In this document: piece after piece, positions 22,373 through 26,355 of the stretch
Layout of the letters: each line of letters opens with the position of its first letter
Numbering within the stretch: position 1 is the stretch's first letter
Assembly: GCA_026988015.1 (NCBI GenBank)
Contig: JALSMA010000062.1
Coordinates: forward strand, 1 to 38,795
Reading direction: 5' to 3'
Length of the DNA stretch: 38,795 nt
Source of the DNA: Desulfobulbaceae bacterium
GTDB lineage: Bacteria; Desulfobacterota; Desulfobulbia; Desulfobulbales; Desulfocapsaceae
Translations under genes and position numbers: made by a program
Notes under the pieces: model-generated
Told to the model about the DNA's origin: nothing
The model's database searches: none
What the model saw: only the letters and a program-made list of their open reading frames with translations

Positions 22373-22470
22373 TGGCGGAAGTGCATGGGAATCGAACCCA
22401 CCTAGCGAGCTATTAACCCGCTACACCGGATTTGAAGTCCGGGAGCGCCACCAGTGCACTATCCACTTCC
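22373..22470 (-). tRNA. selC: tRNA-Sec (anticodon TCA)
   Basis: The minus strand encodes a 98-nt tRNA with CCA. It has an extended acceptor stem beginning GGAAGTGG, anticodon TCA in the loop CTTCAAA, a long variable arm (about 22 nt) and the T-loop GGTTCGATTCC. The unusual length, the UGA-reading anticodon and the long acceptor arm identify selenocysteine tRNA. The organism therefore very likely makes selenoproteins. No SelA, SelB or selenoprotein gene is visible here. Confidence 0.95.
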
Positions 22471-22631
22471 CCATTGTGGAAGCCACTGTAATAATAATTA
22501 CTGTGGAAAACAACTTTTTTTATAATTTGCTTTCTTGGGAGAGAATGTTTAATTTAGTTGGCATTCTCTTGAATCAACGAAAAGATTTACTTATTTTCAC
22601 TCCATCCTTCAGCTAAACACAAAAAAAACAT

Positions 22632-22919
22632 ATGCAGTGTGAAAGACTTATCAAACAGATTAAGGCGTGGTACATCCATGTGAGTAATGAAACCATGGCT
22701 CCAGCCAGAATGGTGTCGTTTATTCAAAAGCATGCCGCAGAATGCGACATATGCCTGGAAGACCCGGATCTGCAAGAAGAAATTGAAAAAATTACAGAAA
22801 TGATCCTCCCTGAATCGAAGATACCGAAAGCCGTACGCATGCAGCAGGAACAGGAAGAACAGGAAAAACGGGCCGCTGAAAACGAAGATAGCTCCGAGGG
22901 AACAGCAGATATCGAATAA
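22632..22919 (+). CDS. small CxxC protein of unknown function
   Basis: I do not recognise a named family. The 95-residue product is acidic and helical: MQCERLIKQIKAWYIHVSNE, an APARMVSFIQKH helix, then HAAECDICLEDPDLQEEIEKI with a CxxC pair (39 and 42), and ILPESKIPKAVR. A Glu/Gln-rich tail (from about 70) is low complexity. There is no signal peptide. The ATG follows an A-rich stretch without a Shine-Dalgarno sequence. A strong hairpin terminator lies 57 bases after the stop, supporting a real transcribed gene. Confidence 0.72.
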   Translation: MQCERLIKQIKAWYIHVSNETMAPARMVSFIQKHAAECDICLEDPDLQEEIEKITEMILPESKIPKAVRMQQEQEEQEKRAAENEDSSEGTADIE

Positions 22920-22975
22920 TTTTTTGCGACAACAAACCATTCGATATCCAACACAGCAGAATGAGTAATAAATAG

Positions 22976-23028
22976 AAAAGCCGTGCACCATGTTGTATGT
23001 TGAAAACAGGGTGCACGGCTTTTTTTTG
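22976..23028. terminator. bidirectional terminator between the CxxC gene and cooS
   Basis: Perfect 14-base arms (22976-22989, 23010-23023; core AGCCGTGCACC) with a 20-base loop are followed on the plus strand by a long T-run. On the minus strand the stem is followed by TTTTC, a weaker tail. It sits between the convergent ends at 22919 and 23054 and can serve both genes. Confidence 0.88.
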
Positions 23029-23053
23029 TTTTAGCAGCGGTCCTTTATTTCAG

Positions 23054-24931
23054 CTACTCCGGAAGCCCAAGCCCCTTCCGTTTCATTTTAATTCGCTCGT
23101 CAATAAGTTCTGCTGCCTTGAAAGGATCTGGCTCTATTGCAAAACAGGCACCAAGCATTTCATCAAGCCCTTCAAGGGCCAGATTTGTCACAACTGGGGA
23201 TCCTGTAATGTTAGGTGGGTGTCCGAGATGGGTGTATATCCCGGATGCGACCGCATAAGTGCCTATAGTAGCCGCTTTTTCCGAGTACCACTCAGGCGAG
23301 GACGCTGCCAGGGGCAAGTCGGAAATACTAACTCCTATTTCGTTGGCGAGCAATGCCGCCAGCTGCAGAATCCTGGCATTATCAACACAGCTTCCCATAT
23401 GCAGAACAGGGGGGATTCCAAGGCTGCCACATATCTCCTTCAGACCGGGTCCTGCCTGCTCAATCGCCTCAGGAACAAGAAGTCCAGCCTTCCCTGCAGC
23501 AGTTGTCACACAGCCTGTGGCAAGAACCAGAATATCTTTTTTGATAAGTTCACGGGCAAGATTAACATTACAGAAGTCATGTTTGTATTTCGGATTATTA
23601 CATCCGACGAGACCCACAGCCCCCCGGATCTTTCCGGCTTTTATAGCATCGACCAGTGGACTGAGCGATCCACCCAGGGCCTCGAGCAACGCCTCATTGG
23701 AAAACCCGGTCATTATATCAACAGGCTCACAGGGAATTTCGACACGATCCTGATTGCGCATGGTATAGCGATCGATTGCCATCCGGACAACCTTCCGCGC
23801 CTGTTCCATACCATTGTGCATTTCAAATTTCACATGATCTGCACCTGTGAATCTGGCCTTATCAGCAGTGGTTACCATTTTGGTATGGTAACAATTTCCG
23901 ACCTGAACAAGGCTTGGCATAATGCATTGGTAATCGACCACAATCAACTCAACTGCTCCGGTAATTATCGCAAGCTCGGTCATCAGATGGTTTCCAGCCA
24001 TGGGAATCCCCTGGCGCATCATTAATTCATTCCCTGTACAACACAAGCCAGCCAGATTTACTCCAGAAGCTCCAGCTTTTCTGGCAAGATCAATAAGCTC
24101 TTCTTCGTTAACAGCTTCCAGAATTTTTTCGGAAACAATGGGGTTATGTCCATGAACCAGAATATTCACCTGGTCCTCTTTCAAAACGCCAAGATTTACC
24201 TGGGCCTTTCGCGGAGAAGGTGTACCAAATAAGATATCTGAAAGTTCTGTAGCAATCATTGATCCTGACCAGCCATCAGCCAGGCACATACGCAACGCAT
24301 GCAACATGGTATTTCCAGCATCATTGTCGCAACCCATATGGGTCCTGTGCATCATTTCTGTGACTTCACGATCCACGCCACGTGGAACAATGCCCAACTT
24401 CTCCCAGTTTTCAAGCTGCTTTACAGGAAGCCGGCTGAGAAAGCCAACTTTTTCACGCCTGCTGCCAAAATCCTCAAAGAACTCATCTGCCAGATCCCTG
24501 GCAACTTCCAGCAGCTCCCGCCCTTCTATAGCAATGCCACGTTCCTCTGCAATACGCAGCAGTTTCTGTTCATCTTTAATCTGGTAATCTTTGGTATGCC
24601 CATGGGCAACGGCGTGAAAGGCCTCTATACAATCACGACCATGATCTGAATGGCCTGCTGCCCCGCCAGCAAGAAAACGTCCAAAGTTTCTGGCCACAAT
24701 AACATCAGCCCCCGCCCCGCAGACACCAAGGGGCGCTTTTTTACTTATCCGACACGGACCCATGGTACAAATACGACAGCAGACACCTGATTCTCCAAAC
24801 TTGCAGTGCGGGGTTTGCTGTTCCAGCCTGTCCCAAACTGTCTCAATCCCATCGCGTTCAGCCTTCTGCAGCATCTTCTGAGCATCATCCCACATACTCA
24901 TTTTTTCAAATCTTTTCGGATCTTCCTTCAT
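23054..24931 (-). CDS. cooS: anaerobic carbon-monoxide dehydrogenase catalytic subunit
   Basis: Nickel-iron-sulfur enzyme that oxidises CO to CO2. The 625-residue protein keeps every ligand I can place by homology to the CODH II family. For the D- and B-clusters these are Cys43, 51, 52, 55, 60 and 71. For the Ni-Fe-S C-cluster they are His262 (VHGHNP), Cys298 (LCCTGNE), Cys336 (VDYQC), Cys444 (LVGCNN), Cys474 (ATGCVTT) and Cys515 (HMGSCVD). AGGAGA precedes the ATG. No cooF (electron carrier), cooC (Ni insertion) or acetyl-CoA synthase genes adjoin, so it looks monofunctional and stand-alone. The CooA-type regulator gene lies just upstream. Confidence 0.97.
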   Translation of the reverse strand: MKEDPKRFEKMSMWDDAQKMLQKAERDGIETVWDRLEQQTPHCKFGESGVCCRICTMGPCRISKKAPLGVCGAGADVIVARNFGRFLAGGAAGHSDHGRDCIEAFHAVAHGHTKDYQIKDEQKLLRIAEERGIAIEGRELLEVARDLADEFFEDFGSRREKVGFLSRLPVKQLENWEKLGIVPRGVDREVTEMMHRTHMGCDNDAGNTMLHALRMCLADGWSGSMIATELSDILFGTPSPRKAQVNLGVLKEDQVNILVHGHNPIVSEKILEAVNEEELIDLARKAGASGVNLAGLCCTGNELMMRQGIPMAGNHLMTELAIITGAVELIVVDYQCIMPSLVQVGNCYHTKMVTTADKARFTGADHVKFEMHNGMEQARKVVRMAIDRYTMRNQDRVEIPCEPVDIMTGFSNEALLEALGGSLSPLVDAIKAGKIRGAVGLVGCNNPKYKHDFCNVNLARELIKKDILVLATGCVTTAAGKAGLLVPEAIEQAGPGLKEICGSLGIPPVLHMGSCVDNARILQLAALLANEIGVSISDLPLAASSPEWYSEKAATIGTYAVASGIYTHLGHPPNITGSPVVTNLALEGLDEMLGACFAIEPDPFKAAELIDERIKMKRKGLGLPE

Positions 24932-24999
24932 ACAATTTCTCCTGTACTGTGGTTGGATAAGTCGTTCCGGATATCATAACCTTACTGTCACATAAAAAC

Positions 25000-25042
25000 A
25001 TTTTACAGGAAAATAACTCTGATTACTGTCAGCTATCTGACA
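25000..25042 (-). promoter_or_regulatory. CooA-type operator and class II promoter of cooS
   Basis: A perfect CRP/CooA-type palindrome TGTCA-N6-TGACA occupies 25027-25042. On the minus strand the hexamer TAAAAT (25000-25005) lies where a -10 box is expected if the palindrome is centred at about -41.5, the class II activator position. Predicted transcription start is near 24993, giving a leader of about 62 bases to the cooS ATG. There is no good -35, as expected for an activator-dependent promoter. The adjacent cooA-like gene makes it the probable regulator. Confidence 0.8.
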
Positions 25043-25092
25043 AACAACCAGTTTTTTAAAAAAAAGATGAACACTGCACACTTGAGTCGAAG

Positions 25093-25755
25093 TCAGACCC
25101 GAGTGTGACCGTAGTTTTTCAACAGATCAACATTTGGAATCAGATAGACATTCCGGGACATTTTCTCCAGTACCCCGTCCTTCAACATGGCGCTCACAAT
25201 AGTGGAAACCGTCTGCCTTGAAGAGCCTATGATGGCCGCAAGCTGGATGTTGGTTAAAGCAATCCTGACAACGGTTCCACTGGGAGTTGGGAGACCGTTA
25301 TTTTCCGTTTCATAAAGAAAGAAATCCGTTAATCGCTGCCTGATGTCTTTGAAGACCAGGCTGTCAATAATGGAAAAGGACTGGCTCAACATCTCACCCA
25401 GGATACGGATAATAGTCGCGGAAAGTGCGGGATGGCTTGTCATGCAGGAATGGAACCTGGCTGTTGGCATTACCAGCAATGTCACCTCTTCAATGCTCTG
25501 AACATGTGCACGGGTATGACTTACGAAGATATCTCCGGATTCCAGAATAGCTAAGGAGAAGTCTTTATCCTCCACTGCAAGATACAGGCGCAATCGCCCC
25601 TTTTTCACAATAAAAACTTGATTCTTCTCATGACCGGGAGAGTATATCAGACTATTCCCAGCATGTCTGTTTTCGGTGAACTCCGCCATGAGGGCGGAAT
25701 TTTCGGGGCGTGTCAGCTCGTTGAGCAGATTGATTGACAGTAACCTAGTCTTCAT
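25093..25755 (-). CDS. cooA: CooA-type heme CO-sensing transcriptional regulator
   Basis: A CRP/FNR-family activator. I place the start at the ATG at 25755 (220 residues, close to known CooA), although a TTG-started frame extends to 25806. The effector domain matches CooA: NQVFIVKKGRLRLYLAVEDK, then GDIFVSHTRAH, where His80 aligns with the proximal heme histidine and Val78 replaces the redox-linked Cys of the Rhodospirillum protein. The long C-helix and the HTH SSRQTVSTIVSAMLKDG follow. It lacks FNR-type cysteines. It is upstream of cooS in the same direction, separated by the predicted operator. Confidence 0.88.
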   Translation of the reverse strand: MKTRLLSINLLNELTRPENSALMAEFTENRHAGNSLIYSPGHEKNQVFIVKKGRLRLYLAVEDKDFSLAILESGDIFVSHTRAHVQSIEEVTLLVMPTARFHSCMTSHPALSATIIRILGEMLSQSFSIIDSLVFKDIRQRLTDFFLYETENNGLPTPSGTVVRIALTNIQLAAIIGSSRQTVSTIVSAMLKDGVLEKMSRNVYLIPNVDLLKNYGHTRV

Positions 25756-25922
25756 TTGGACATATGTTATATATTTGGTGGCGTCGTAAAGACTCTTCCT
25801 CTTCAATACTTTTATCGTACCACATAAAAACCTGCTTCTTAAAGTAAAAAGAACAGACCATACTCAATCAAAAAAAATCTTTGCATCGTTCAGGGAGAAT
25901 AAAATGCAAAACCGGGGAAAAC

Positions 25923-25959
25923 AAAAAAAAAGCCAATCACTTATGAAGTGATTGGCTTT
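25923..25959 (-). terminator. terminator after tRNA-Pro
   Basis: Perfect 14-base arms (25929-25942 and 25946-25959; AAAGCCAATCACTT) with an ATG loop run on the minus strand into a T-run (25923-25931 in plus coordinates). It lies 11 bases past the tRNA-Pro 3' end. Confidence 0.92.
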
Positions 25960-25970
25960 CAGCTGACAAA

Positions 25971-26048
25971 TGGTCGGGGCGGTAGGATTCGAACCTACGG
26001 CCTCCTGCTCCCAAGGCAGGCGCGCTAACCAGGCTGCGCTACGCCCCG
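25971..26048 (-). tRNA. tRNA-Pro (anticodon TGG)
   Basis: The minus strand folds as a 78-nt tRNA. The acceptor CGGGGCG pairs with CGCCCCG, the anticodon arm CTGCCTTGGGAGCAG has anticodon TGG, the T-loop is GGTTCGAATCC, and CCA is encoded. It lies 59 bases after tRNA-Asn in the same direction, with a hairpin between them. Confidence 0.95.
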
Positions 26049-26063
26049 ACTCACAAAGAAAGG

Positions 26064-26099
26064 AAAAAAAGCCCGACCTATAAAGAAAAGATCGGGCTT
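26064..26099 (-). terminator. hairpin terminator between tRNA-Asn and tRNA-Pro
   Basis: AAGCCCGA (26069-26076) and TCGGGCTT (26092-26099) form an 8-bp GC-rich stem with a 15-base loop. On the minus strand a run of seven T follows. It lies nine bases after tRNA-Asn, so tRNA-Pro may depend on read-through or on a promoter I cannot see. Confidence 0.75.
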
Positions 26100-26107
26100 G
26101 GTATTTT

Positions 26108-26183
26108 TGGCTCCTCGAGCAAGACTCGAACTTGCGACAAGGTGGTTAACAGCCACCTGCTCTACCAACTGAGCTATCGAGGA
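26108..26183 (-). tRNA. tRNA-Asn (anticodon GTT)
   Basis: A 76-nt cloverleaf on the minus strand. The acceptor TCCTCGA pairs with TCGAGGA, the D-loop is AGCTCAGTTGGTAGAGC, the anticodon is GTT in GGCTGTTAACC, the T-loop is AGTTCGAGTCT, and CCA is encoded. Confidence 0.96.
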
Positions 26184-26230
26184 TTAAAATCAACAGGCGT
26201 TAACAATAGCAAGCAACCTGTAGGCGCACG

Positions 26231-26259
26231 AATATAAACGACCGGAGTCAAGCTGTCAA
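26231..26259 (-). promoter_or_regulatory. sigma70-type promoter of tRNA-Asn
   Basis: On the minus strand TTGACA (26254-26259) and TATATT (26231-26236) are exactly 17 bases apart. A GC-rich discriminator (CGTGCGCC) follows, typical of stable-RNA promoters under stringent control. The start would be near 26224, about 40 bases before the mature tRNA. Confidence 0.82.
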
Positions 26260-26293
26260 TACCTTTTTCCATTCCTGCAACTGAAAAAGGTAT
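26259..26293. repeat. 11-bp inverted repeat downstream of the DUF4136 gene
   Basis: ATACCTTTTTC (26259-26269) pairs perfectly with GAAAAAGGTAT (26283-26293) across a 13-base loop. It sits between the DUF4136-like stop (26356) and the tRNA-Asn promoter, touching the -35 box. There is no T-tract, so it is a weak terminator candidate or a possible operator. Confidence 0.55.
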
Positions 26294-26355
26294 GGTGTAA
26301 ATCTCCTCATTCACAGGCAAAGTCACAGAGGATTCAATACTCTTTGTTCAAAGAA

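Follow-up and report, generated by a model that had tools for sequence, protein, structure and literature searches.

A predicted CooA operator at conserved class II spacing before a CO dehydrogenase gene in a Desulfobulbaceae bacterium

The window, i.e., the whole 38,795-nucleotide stretch of DNA analysed here, harbours on its minus strand, in this order, cooA (25755-25093), a 161-base spacer and cooS (24931-23054). The features of this locus are as follows, with the basis of each assignment in brackets.

25093..25755, minus strand: cooA, CRP/FNR-family CO-sensing activator, 220 aa (solved-structure matches, alignment, domains)
25027..25042, minus strand: predicted CooA operator, TGTCAGATAGCTGACA towards cooS, centre at -41.5 (sequence, conservation)
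25000..25005, minus strand: -10 box TAAAAT (TAnnnT at equal offset in other promoters)
24993..24993, minus strand: predicted cooS transcription start (deduced from spacing)
24939..24943, minus strand: Shine-Dalgarno sequence AGGAG (read in the sequence; cooS ATG at 24931)
23054..24931, minus strand: cooS, Ni-dependent CO dehydrogenase (CODH) catalytic subunit, 625 aa (TIGR01702, solved CODHs)
22980..23019, minus strand: possible terminator of cooS, a G+C-rich stem of 10 pairs with a loop of 20 bases (by eye)

The cooA product harbours HTH_Crp_2 and cNMP_binding domains. Its start, ATG 25755, was picked from the alignment, the longest frame opening at TTG 25806. Among solved structures, its top match is CooA-1 (2fmy, residues 4-216, E 2.7e-52), and further matches include 2hkx and 1ft9 (E 3.7e-35); we take 2fmy and 1ft9 to be the CooA proteins of Carboxydothermus and Rhodospirillum rubrum, respectively. 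The protein spans the sensor and the DNA-binding domains of solved CooA, and the first full-length match not named CooA reaches only E 2.2e-11. The proximal heme-ligand His, presumably His77 in R. rubrum CooA numbering, is aligned between the window protein and solved CooA. This residue (H80) is invariant in the 16 aligned sequences and was found by peptide pattern in 96 of 99 cooA loci, a conservation that is partly pre-selected since the pattern was used in gathering the loci from named genomes. The RQT-S recognition-helix motif of 1ft9 is likewise present in 16/16 aligned sequences and 97/99 loci. These structural matches and the His bear out the description of the neighbouring gene as cooA-like in a preliminary description of this DNA. 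The closest named relatives are found in an unclassified deltaproteobacterial MAG (82% identity) and in Desulfobulbaceae and Desulfocapsa MAGs (68-74%).

The position of R. rubrum Cys75, which we take to be the thiolate ligand in the ferric state, is occupied by Val (V78) in the window, and Cys was detected by pattern in a single one of the 99 cooA loci. Judging from these sequences, Cys75 is not a defining residue of the wider CooA family, most members of which would not require it. The thiolate redox ligand thus seems to be the exception among the 99 sampled loci.

The cooS product is a full-length Ni-CODH (TIGR01702, 726.7 bits for a cut-off of 478). The closest solved CODHs are 6vwy (E 1e-272), to which it aligns over residues 6-623, and 6b6v (E 1.7e-270), both presumably the enzyme of Desulfovibrio (now Nitratidesulfovibrio) vulgaris, and inspection by eye indicated that the Cys and His motifs of the cluster ligands are kept. 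No cooC, cooF or hydrogenase genes were recognised beside cooS in the window. Two CooC-like matches are found elsewhere in the same genome (contigs C13, 39%, and C88, 33%), with no CooA site detected before the CooC-like gene of C13. Over the loci collected (see below), cooC is missing behind cooS in 25 of the 36 that are readable there, duplicates kept and 33 more being unreadable.

Downstream of cooS lie a 95-codon frame on the opposite strand, a selenocysteine tRNA gene and another gene, which we take to encode the glycyl-tRNA synthetase alpha chain. The tRNA gene (22377-22470) resembles by eye a stretch of locus L131 in a related genome (G010), and Rfam at gathering scores yielded three tRNA genes only over the whole window. 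The stem of the possible cooS terminator is followed by TTTTCTATTT on the minus strand, with a T run on the plus strand; our terminator scan misses it, as it permits loops of 3-8 bases only.

The plus-strand letters at 25027-25042 are TGTCAGCTATCTGACA, an exact TGTCA-N6-TGACA palindrome that also fits TGTC-N8-GACA. If the first base of TAAAAT is taken as -12, the predicted transcription start is 24993 and the centre of the palindrome lies at -41.5. At a spacer of 17 bases the hexamer is CAGTAA, which matches TTGACA at 2/6 positions, hence no -35 box, and a sigma-70 scan of 22500-26300 listed no promoter in the cooA-cooS spacer. With this predicted start, the centre near -41.5, the -10 box and the missing -35 box would make this a class II CRP-type promoter. 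The preliminary description had reported both elements, a distance of about 41.5 bases and no -35 box. All of this is confirmed, the distance on the condition that TAAAAT is the -10 box.

The window contains one copy of the exact core for 0.07 expected (100 shuffles, 7 of which held at least one), and the probability of its chance occurrence in the 161-base spacer is approximately 1.4e-4 assuming equal base frequencies. The preliminary description had proposed a search of the rest of the genome, and this revealed 4 exact core copies in 3.15 Mb. There was no genome-wide enrichment of the core with at most one mismatch (123 occurrences versus 140 for a reversed control pattern), nor of the extended form with at most one mismatch (18 versus 32 in the control). 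The core by itself is thus weak evidence, and the argument must therefore rest on conservation, together with position.

To describe conservation, we used 99 cooA loci. A search of 96 genomes, the window's own and those of unnamed relatives, gave 19 of them; the other 80 come from named genomes and are the best 80 of 120 stretches that encode a relative. Some loci are shared by both sets, and 86 are distinct when judged from the final 300 bases of cooA. Three loci end within 700 bases behind cooA, 15 lack cooS, and in 12 cooS is elsewhere or reversed, including L111, in which cooS is upstream with a site and which was included in the 63 promoters collected before dereplication. The dereplicated sets comprise 52 promoters and 48 spacers; L080 was missed by the spacer scan, its site overlapping the end of cooA.

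Fifty-nine gathered loci have cooS directly behind cooA (within 500 bases), 48 after dropping 11 duplicates. Of these 59 pairs, 56 (45/48 non-redundant) have TGTC-N8-GACA no more than 320 bases upstream of cooS. Two of the three exceptions are one-base variants, CGTC...GACA, and the third (L061) has only a degenerate site that overlaps the end of cooA (score 4.9). In an unbiased scan of the 48 spacers with all 256 four-base words and their reverse complements at gaps of 0-16, TGTC with a gap of 8 came first (44/48), followed by its sub-motifs, and the best unrelated motif reached 7.

The spacing is conserved as well. TAnnnT starts at the 22nd base behind the palindrome, which corresponds to a centre at -41.5, in 41 of the 52 non-redundant promoters. 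It is found 3 times and once at the adjacent offsets, and the remaining offsets have a mean of 1.0 and a maximum of 7. These promoters also favour a G at -14, A/T-rich bases 10-15 positions upstream of the palindrome and a G immediately after it; in the logo of the 52 sites, the search pattern fixes the outer eight letters. The bases at positions 5 and 12 of the site follow no clear code with respect to the recognition helix, since the helices overlap between site types. There is no conserved -35 box, with at most 2 of the 52 promoters showing at least 4 matches to TTGACA at spacers of 15-19. A site that overlaps the -35 region could obstruct the polymerase, and CooA might then repress cooS from the palindrome; we regard this as highly improbable, since a good -10 box with no -35 box across conserved promoters fits a promoter that requires an activator, and CooA has been described as a CO-dependent activator that touches RNA polymerase (PMC6557876).

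The palindrome might also be an RNA hairpin or the terminator of cooA rather than an operator, as it immediately follows cooA and could fold into a stem of 6 pairs. Loci with cooS farther downstream of cooA are informative here. In 6 of 10 the site is centred 81-124 bases before the distant cooS, and in the other 4 it lies behind cooA and before another gene, the CODH (43-45% identical to the window enzyme) being encoded 3.6-3.9 kb away. A repeat that tracks a distant cooS and keeps a fixed spacing to the -10 box, with no minus-strand terminator predicted at the palindrome, makes the hairpin or terminator explanation scarcely credible. A conserved hairpin was suspected by eye in the 5' leaders of some Desulfocapsa-type loci, but the leaders show only a weak tendency to fold better than shuffles: the 48 leaders have a mean z of -0.45 (standard error 0.16), with 3 below -2 and +1.9 for the window leader.

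We also compared 38 genomes, including that of the window, in which the stretch upstream of a cooS orthologue (at least 58% identity) can be read. G015, whose contig ends before cooS, was dropped from this table, and G051 was counted once, with two cut copies read. Of the 18 genomes with cooA, 17 have the full 8-letter site, compared with 2 of the 20 that lack an intact cooA (Fisher p 1.9e-7, a value that is too small, since related genomes are not independent). The latter two were scored as having the site and no intact cooA. In G054, cooA is split over frames beside cooS. G011 (81% complete) retains the outer eight letters of the site, which scores low with the matrix (11.0 in the best-scoring orientation), and a weak cooA remnant of 17 residues that resemble the CooA C-terminus (E 0.02 at best). 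A 7-of-8 match was found in 5 of the 18 genomes scored as lacking the site (G007, G063, G023, G048 and G051), about the chance level. Two genomes devoid of cooA, G004 and G017, nest in a well-supported group of cooA carriers in the CooS tree of the genus, the inner order of which is unresolved; this placement suggests that the sensor and the site were lost together. None of the 14 readable stretches upstream of the genus's second CODH type (44-50% identical) contains the full site (L131 and L135, which begin inside cooS, were left out of this comparison). In the window's own genome, the neighbours of the second CODH gene are presumably acetyl-CoA-pathway genes.

These distributions bear on whether another regulator of the CRP/FNR family, of the HcpR, FNR or CRP type, binds the palindrome, cooA being a mere neighbour. 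Related half sites occur within this family, and the related genomes hold other CRP/FNR-like proteins with weaker matches. HcpR sites have the form TTGTGA-N6-TCACAA (PMC545781), whereas the half site here is TGTC rather than TGTGA, and published CooA sites are TGTCGGCnnGCCGACA (PMC545781) and TGTC-N8-GACA (PMC7306483). Furthermore, the site appears and vanishes with cooA, although 17 of 21 genomes searched hold other CRP/FNR-type matches to the CooA profile; most of the 21 are devoid of CooA, and two of the 17 (G042 and G054) hold real cooA genes. We therefore consider another CRP/FNR-type regulator very unlikely.

The sole cooA genome of the 18 with no site before cooS is G042. There, CooA and a palindrome precede a gene for a very large PAS/GAF/HisKA sensor kinase instead (L030:2157-3650; near-copy L058:5481-10208, in which the kinase domains were read). 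An imperfect -10 box, TAAGCA, occupies the class II offset, and CO control of a signalling protein is possible in this genome. Several other loci also have CooA sites at different genes. At L063:5809-7368, L064:5725-7790 and L066:6781-7182, the sites that accompany CooA precede PAS-like or LuxR-type HTH genes, and these loci have no cooS; L063 and L064 harbour an extra site upstream of cooA. In Cerasicoccus and a Spirochaetes MAG (L078:4263-5069 and L093:6673-7450), proteins of 250 and 213 aa, respectively, encoded beside cooA match only the C-terminal part of the Prismane/CODH family, and a CooA palindrome with a correctly spaced -10 box faces their genes; the site of L108 has the same spacing. 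Finally, at L114:4152-4227 and L117:6660-6687, the CooA-like proteins lack RQT-S, and their genes are followed immediately by a deviant site, TGTCAAAGAATGGACA or TGTCAAAGAGTGGACA. The long genes after the site of L114 are, we assume, those for hydrogenase-complex subunits.

In the genome of the window, TGTCRG-N4-CYGACA occurs without mismatch only once, at the window site. A matrix trained without this site scored it and its promoter at 41.0, within a leave-one-out range of 20.2-47.5. Among the 17 other near-matches in the genome, 15 were scored and none exceeded 11.0; 12 of the 15 fall within reading frames, and TAnnnT is missing from the required offset in all of them. Because the extended palindrome is unique in its genome, CooA probably has one target, and its regulon may consist of cooS alone.

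Altogether, the palindrome is very probably the operator of the adjacent CooA, acting as a CO-dependent class II activator of cooS. From the sequence and homology observed, the conservation of the site and of its spacing and the joint occurrence of the site with cooA, we infer binding by CooA, its CO dependence, the start site and activation as the direction of regulation. CO would bind the CooA heme, and the CooA dimer would then bind TGTCAGATAGCTGACA centred at -41.5 and contact RNA polymerase as a class II activator, standing in for the missing -35 contact. Transcription of cooS would start at about 24993, and CooS would oxidise CO, thereby removing the signal. The original proposal of a CooA-type palindrome placed as a class II site before cooS is thus supported: over dozens of loci, the site and its spacing are conserved and the site occurs together with cooA.

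The preliminary description had also proposed a closed CO-sensing circuit. This idea holds for the loop of sensor, enzyme and substrate, and transcriptional feedback on cooA is unsupported. The window contains no second good CooA site, the next-best matrix score being 11.1 (at the distant position 40) versus 25-26 for the palindrome before cooS. As no site lies upstream of cooA in the window, cooA expression is probably not CooA-dependent; some other lineages do carry a site there. Published data vary on this point, cooA being reported as unchanged under CO in Calderihabitans and as raised in C. pertinax and D. vulgaris (PMC7306483).

We tentatively suggest, with slightly more doubt than confidence, that the locus represents a minimal switch of Desulfobulbales-type bacteria. 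CooA without a thiolate ligand would control a single, solo cooS devoid of cooC, cooF and hydrogenase genes, with the acetyl-CoA-pathway CODH outside the regulon. The switch might serve CO scavenging or protection and not hydrogen-forming growth, and cooA and its site would be lost together.

For Desulfocapsa-like bacteria, the analysis predicts with good support how a CO dehydrogenase is turned on. We found no description of a CooA-cooS switch for these bacteria in the open-licence literature, and one may stand in regulon databases. Since the -41.5 spacing is exact across dozens of promoters that have diverged, CooA provides a clean, natural data set on class II activation. Close relatives that differ in whether they carry cooA could serve as matched strains in studies of the sensor's purpose.

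The window CooA resembles that of R. rubrum in its fold, heme-ligand His and RQT-ST helix, with Val in place of Cys75, and the R. rubrum sites presumably have the class II placement predicted in the window. In that organism they precede cooF, of the CODH cluster, and cooM, of the hydrogenase cluster (PMC6557876). The gene order of the window is shared with Calderihabitans maritimus, in which cooA is upstream of cooS6 with the consensus TGTC-N8-GACA before the latter; unlike the window bacterium, C. maritimus is described as a thermophile with seven cooS genes and a second CooA-type site before the cooS2-ech1 cluster (PMC7306483).

Among sulfate reducers, CooA sites (TGTCGGCTAGCCGACA and TGTCaGCcAGCCGACA) were predicted in 2004 before cooSC in two Desulfovibrio species (PMC545781), hence a CooA regulon with a site before cooS, as in the window. 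The Desulfovibrio genes form a cooSC operon with a G/C-rich consensus, whereas positions 5 and 12 of the window site are A/T and cooS is not followed by cooC. Similarly, Nitratidesulfovibrio vulgaris, presumably the source of the closest solved CODHs, has a small CODH operon with a regulator. This operon is described as containing only a transcriptional regulator and CooC besides the CODH, a layout said to occur for many CODHs of clades E and F (PMC13056359), in contrast with the window, in which no cooC lies beside cooS. The acetyl-CoA-pathway CODH is mentioned in the genome paper on D. sulfexigens, the text of which contains neither the word CODH nor the word CooS (PMC3739170). A CooA site before cooS is thus already published for Desulfovibrio and Calderihabitans, and the window locus varies from these in the absence of cooC behind cooS, its footprint being unusually clean.
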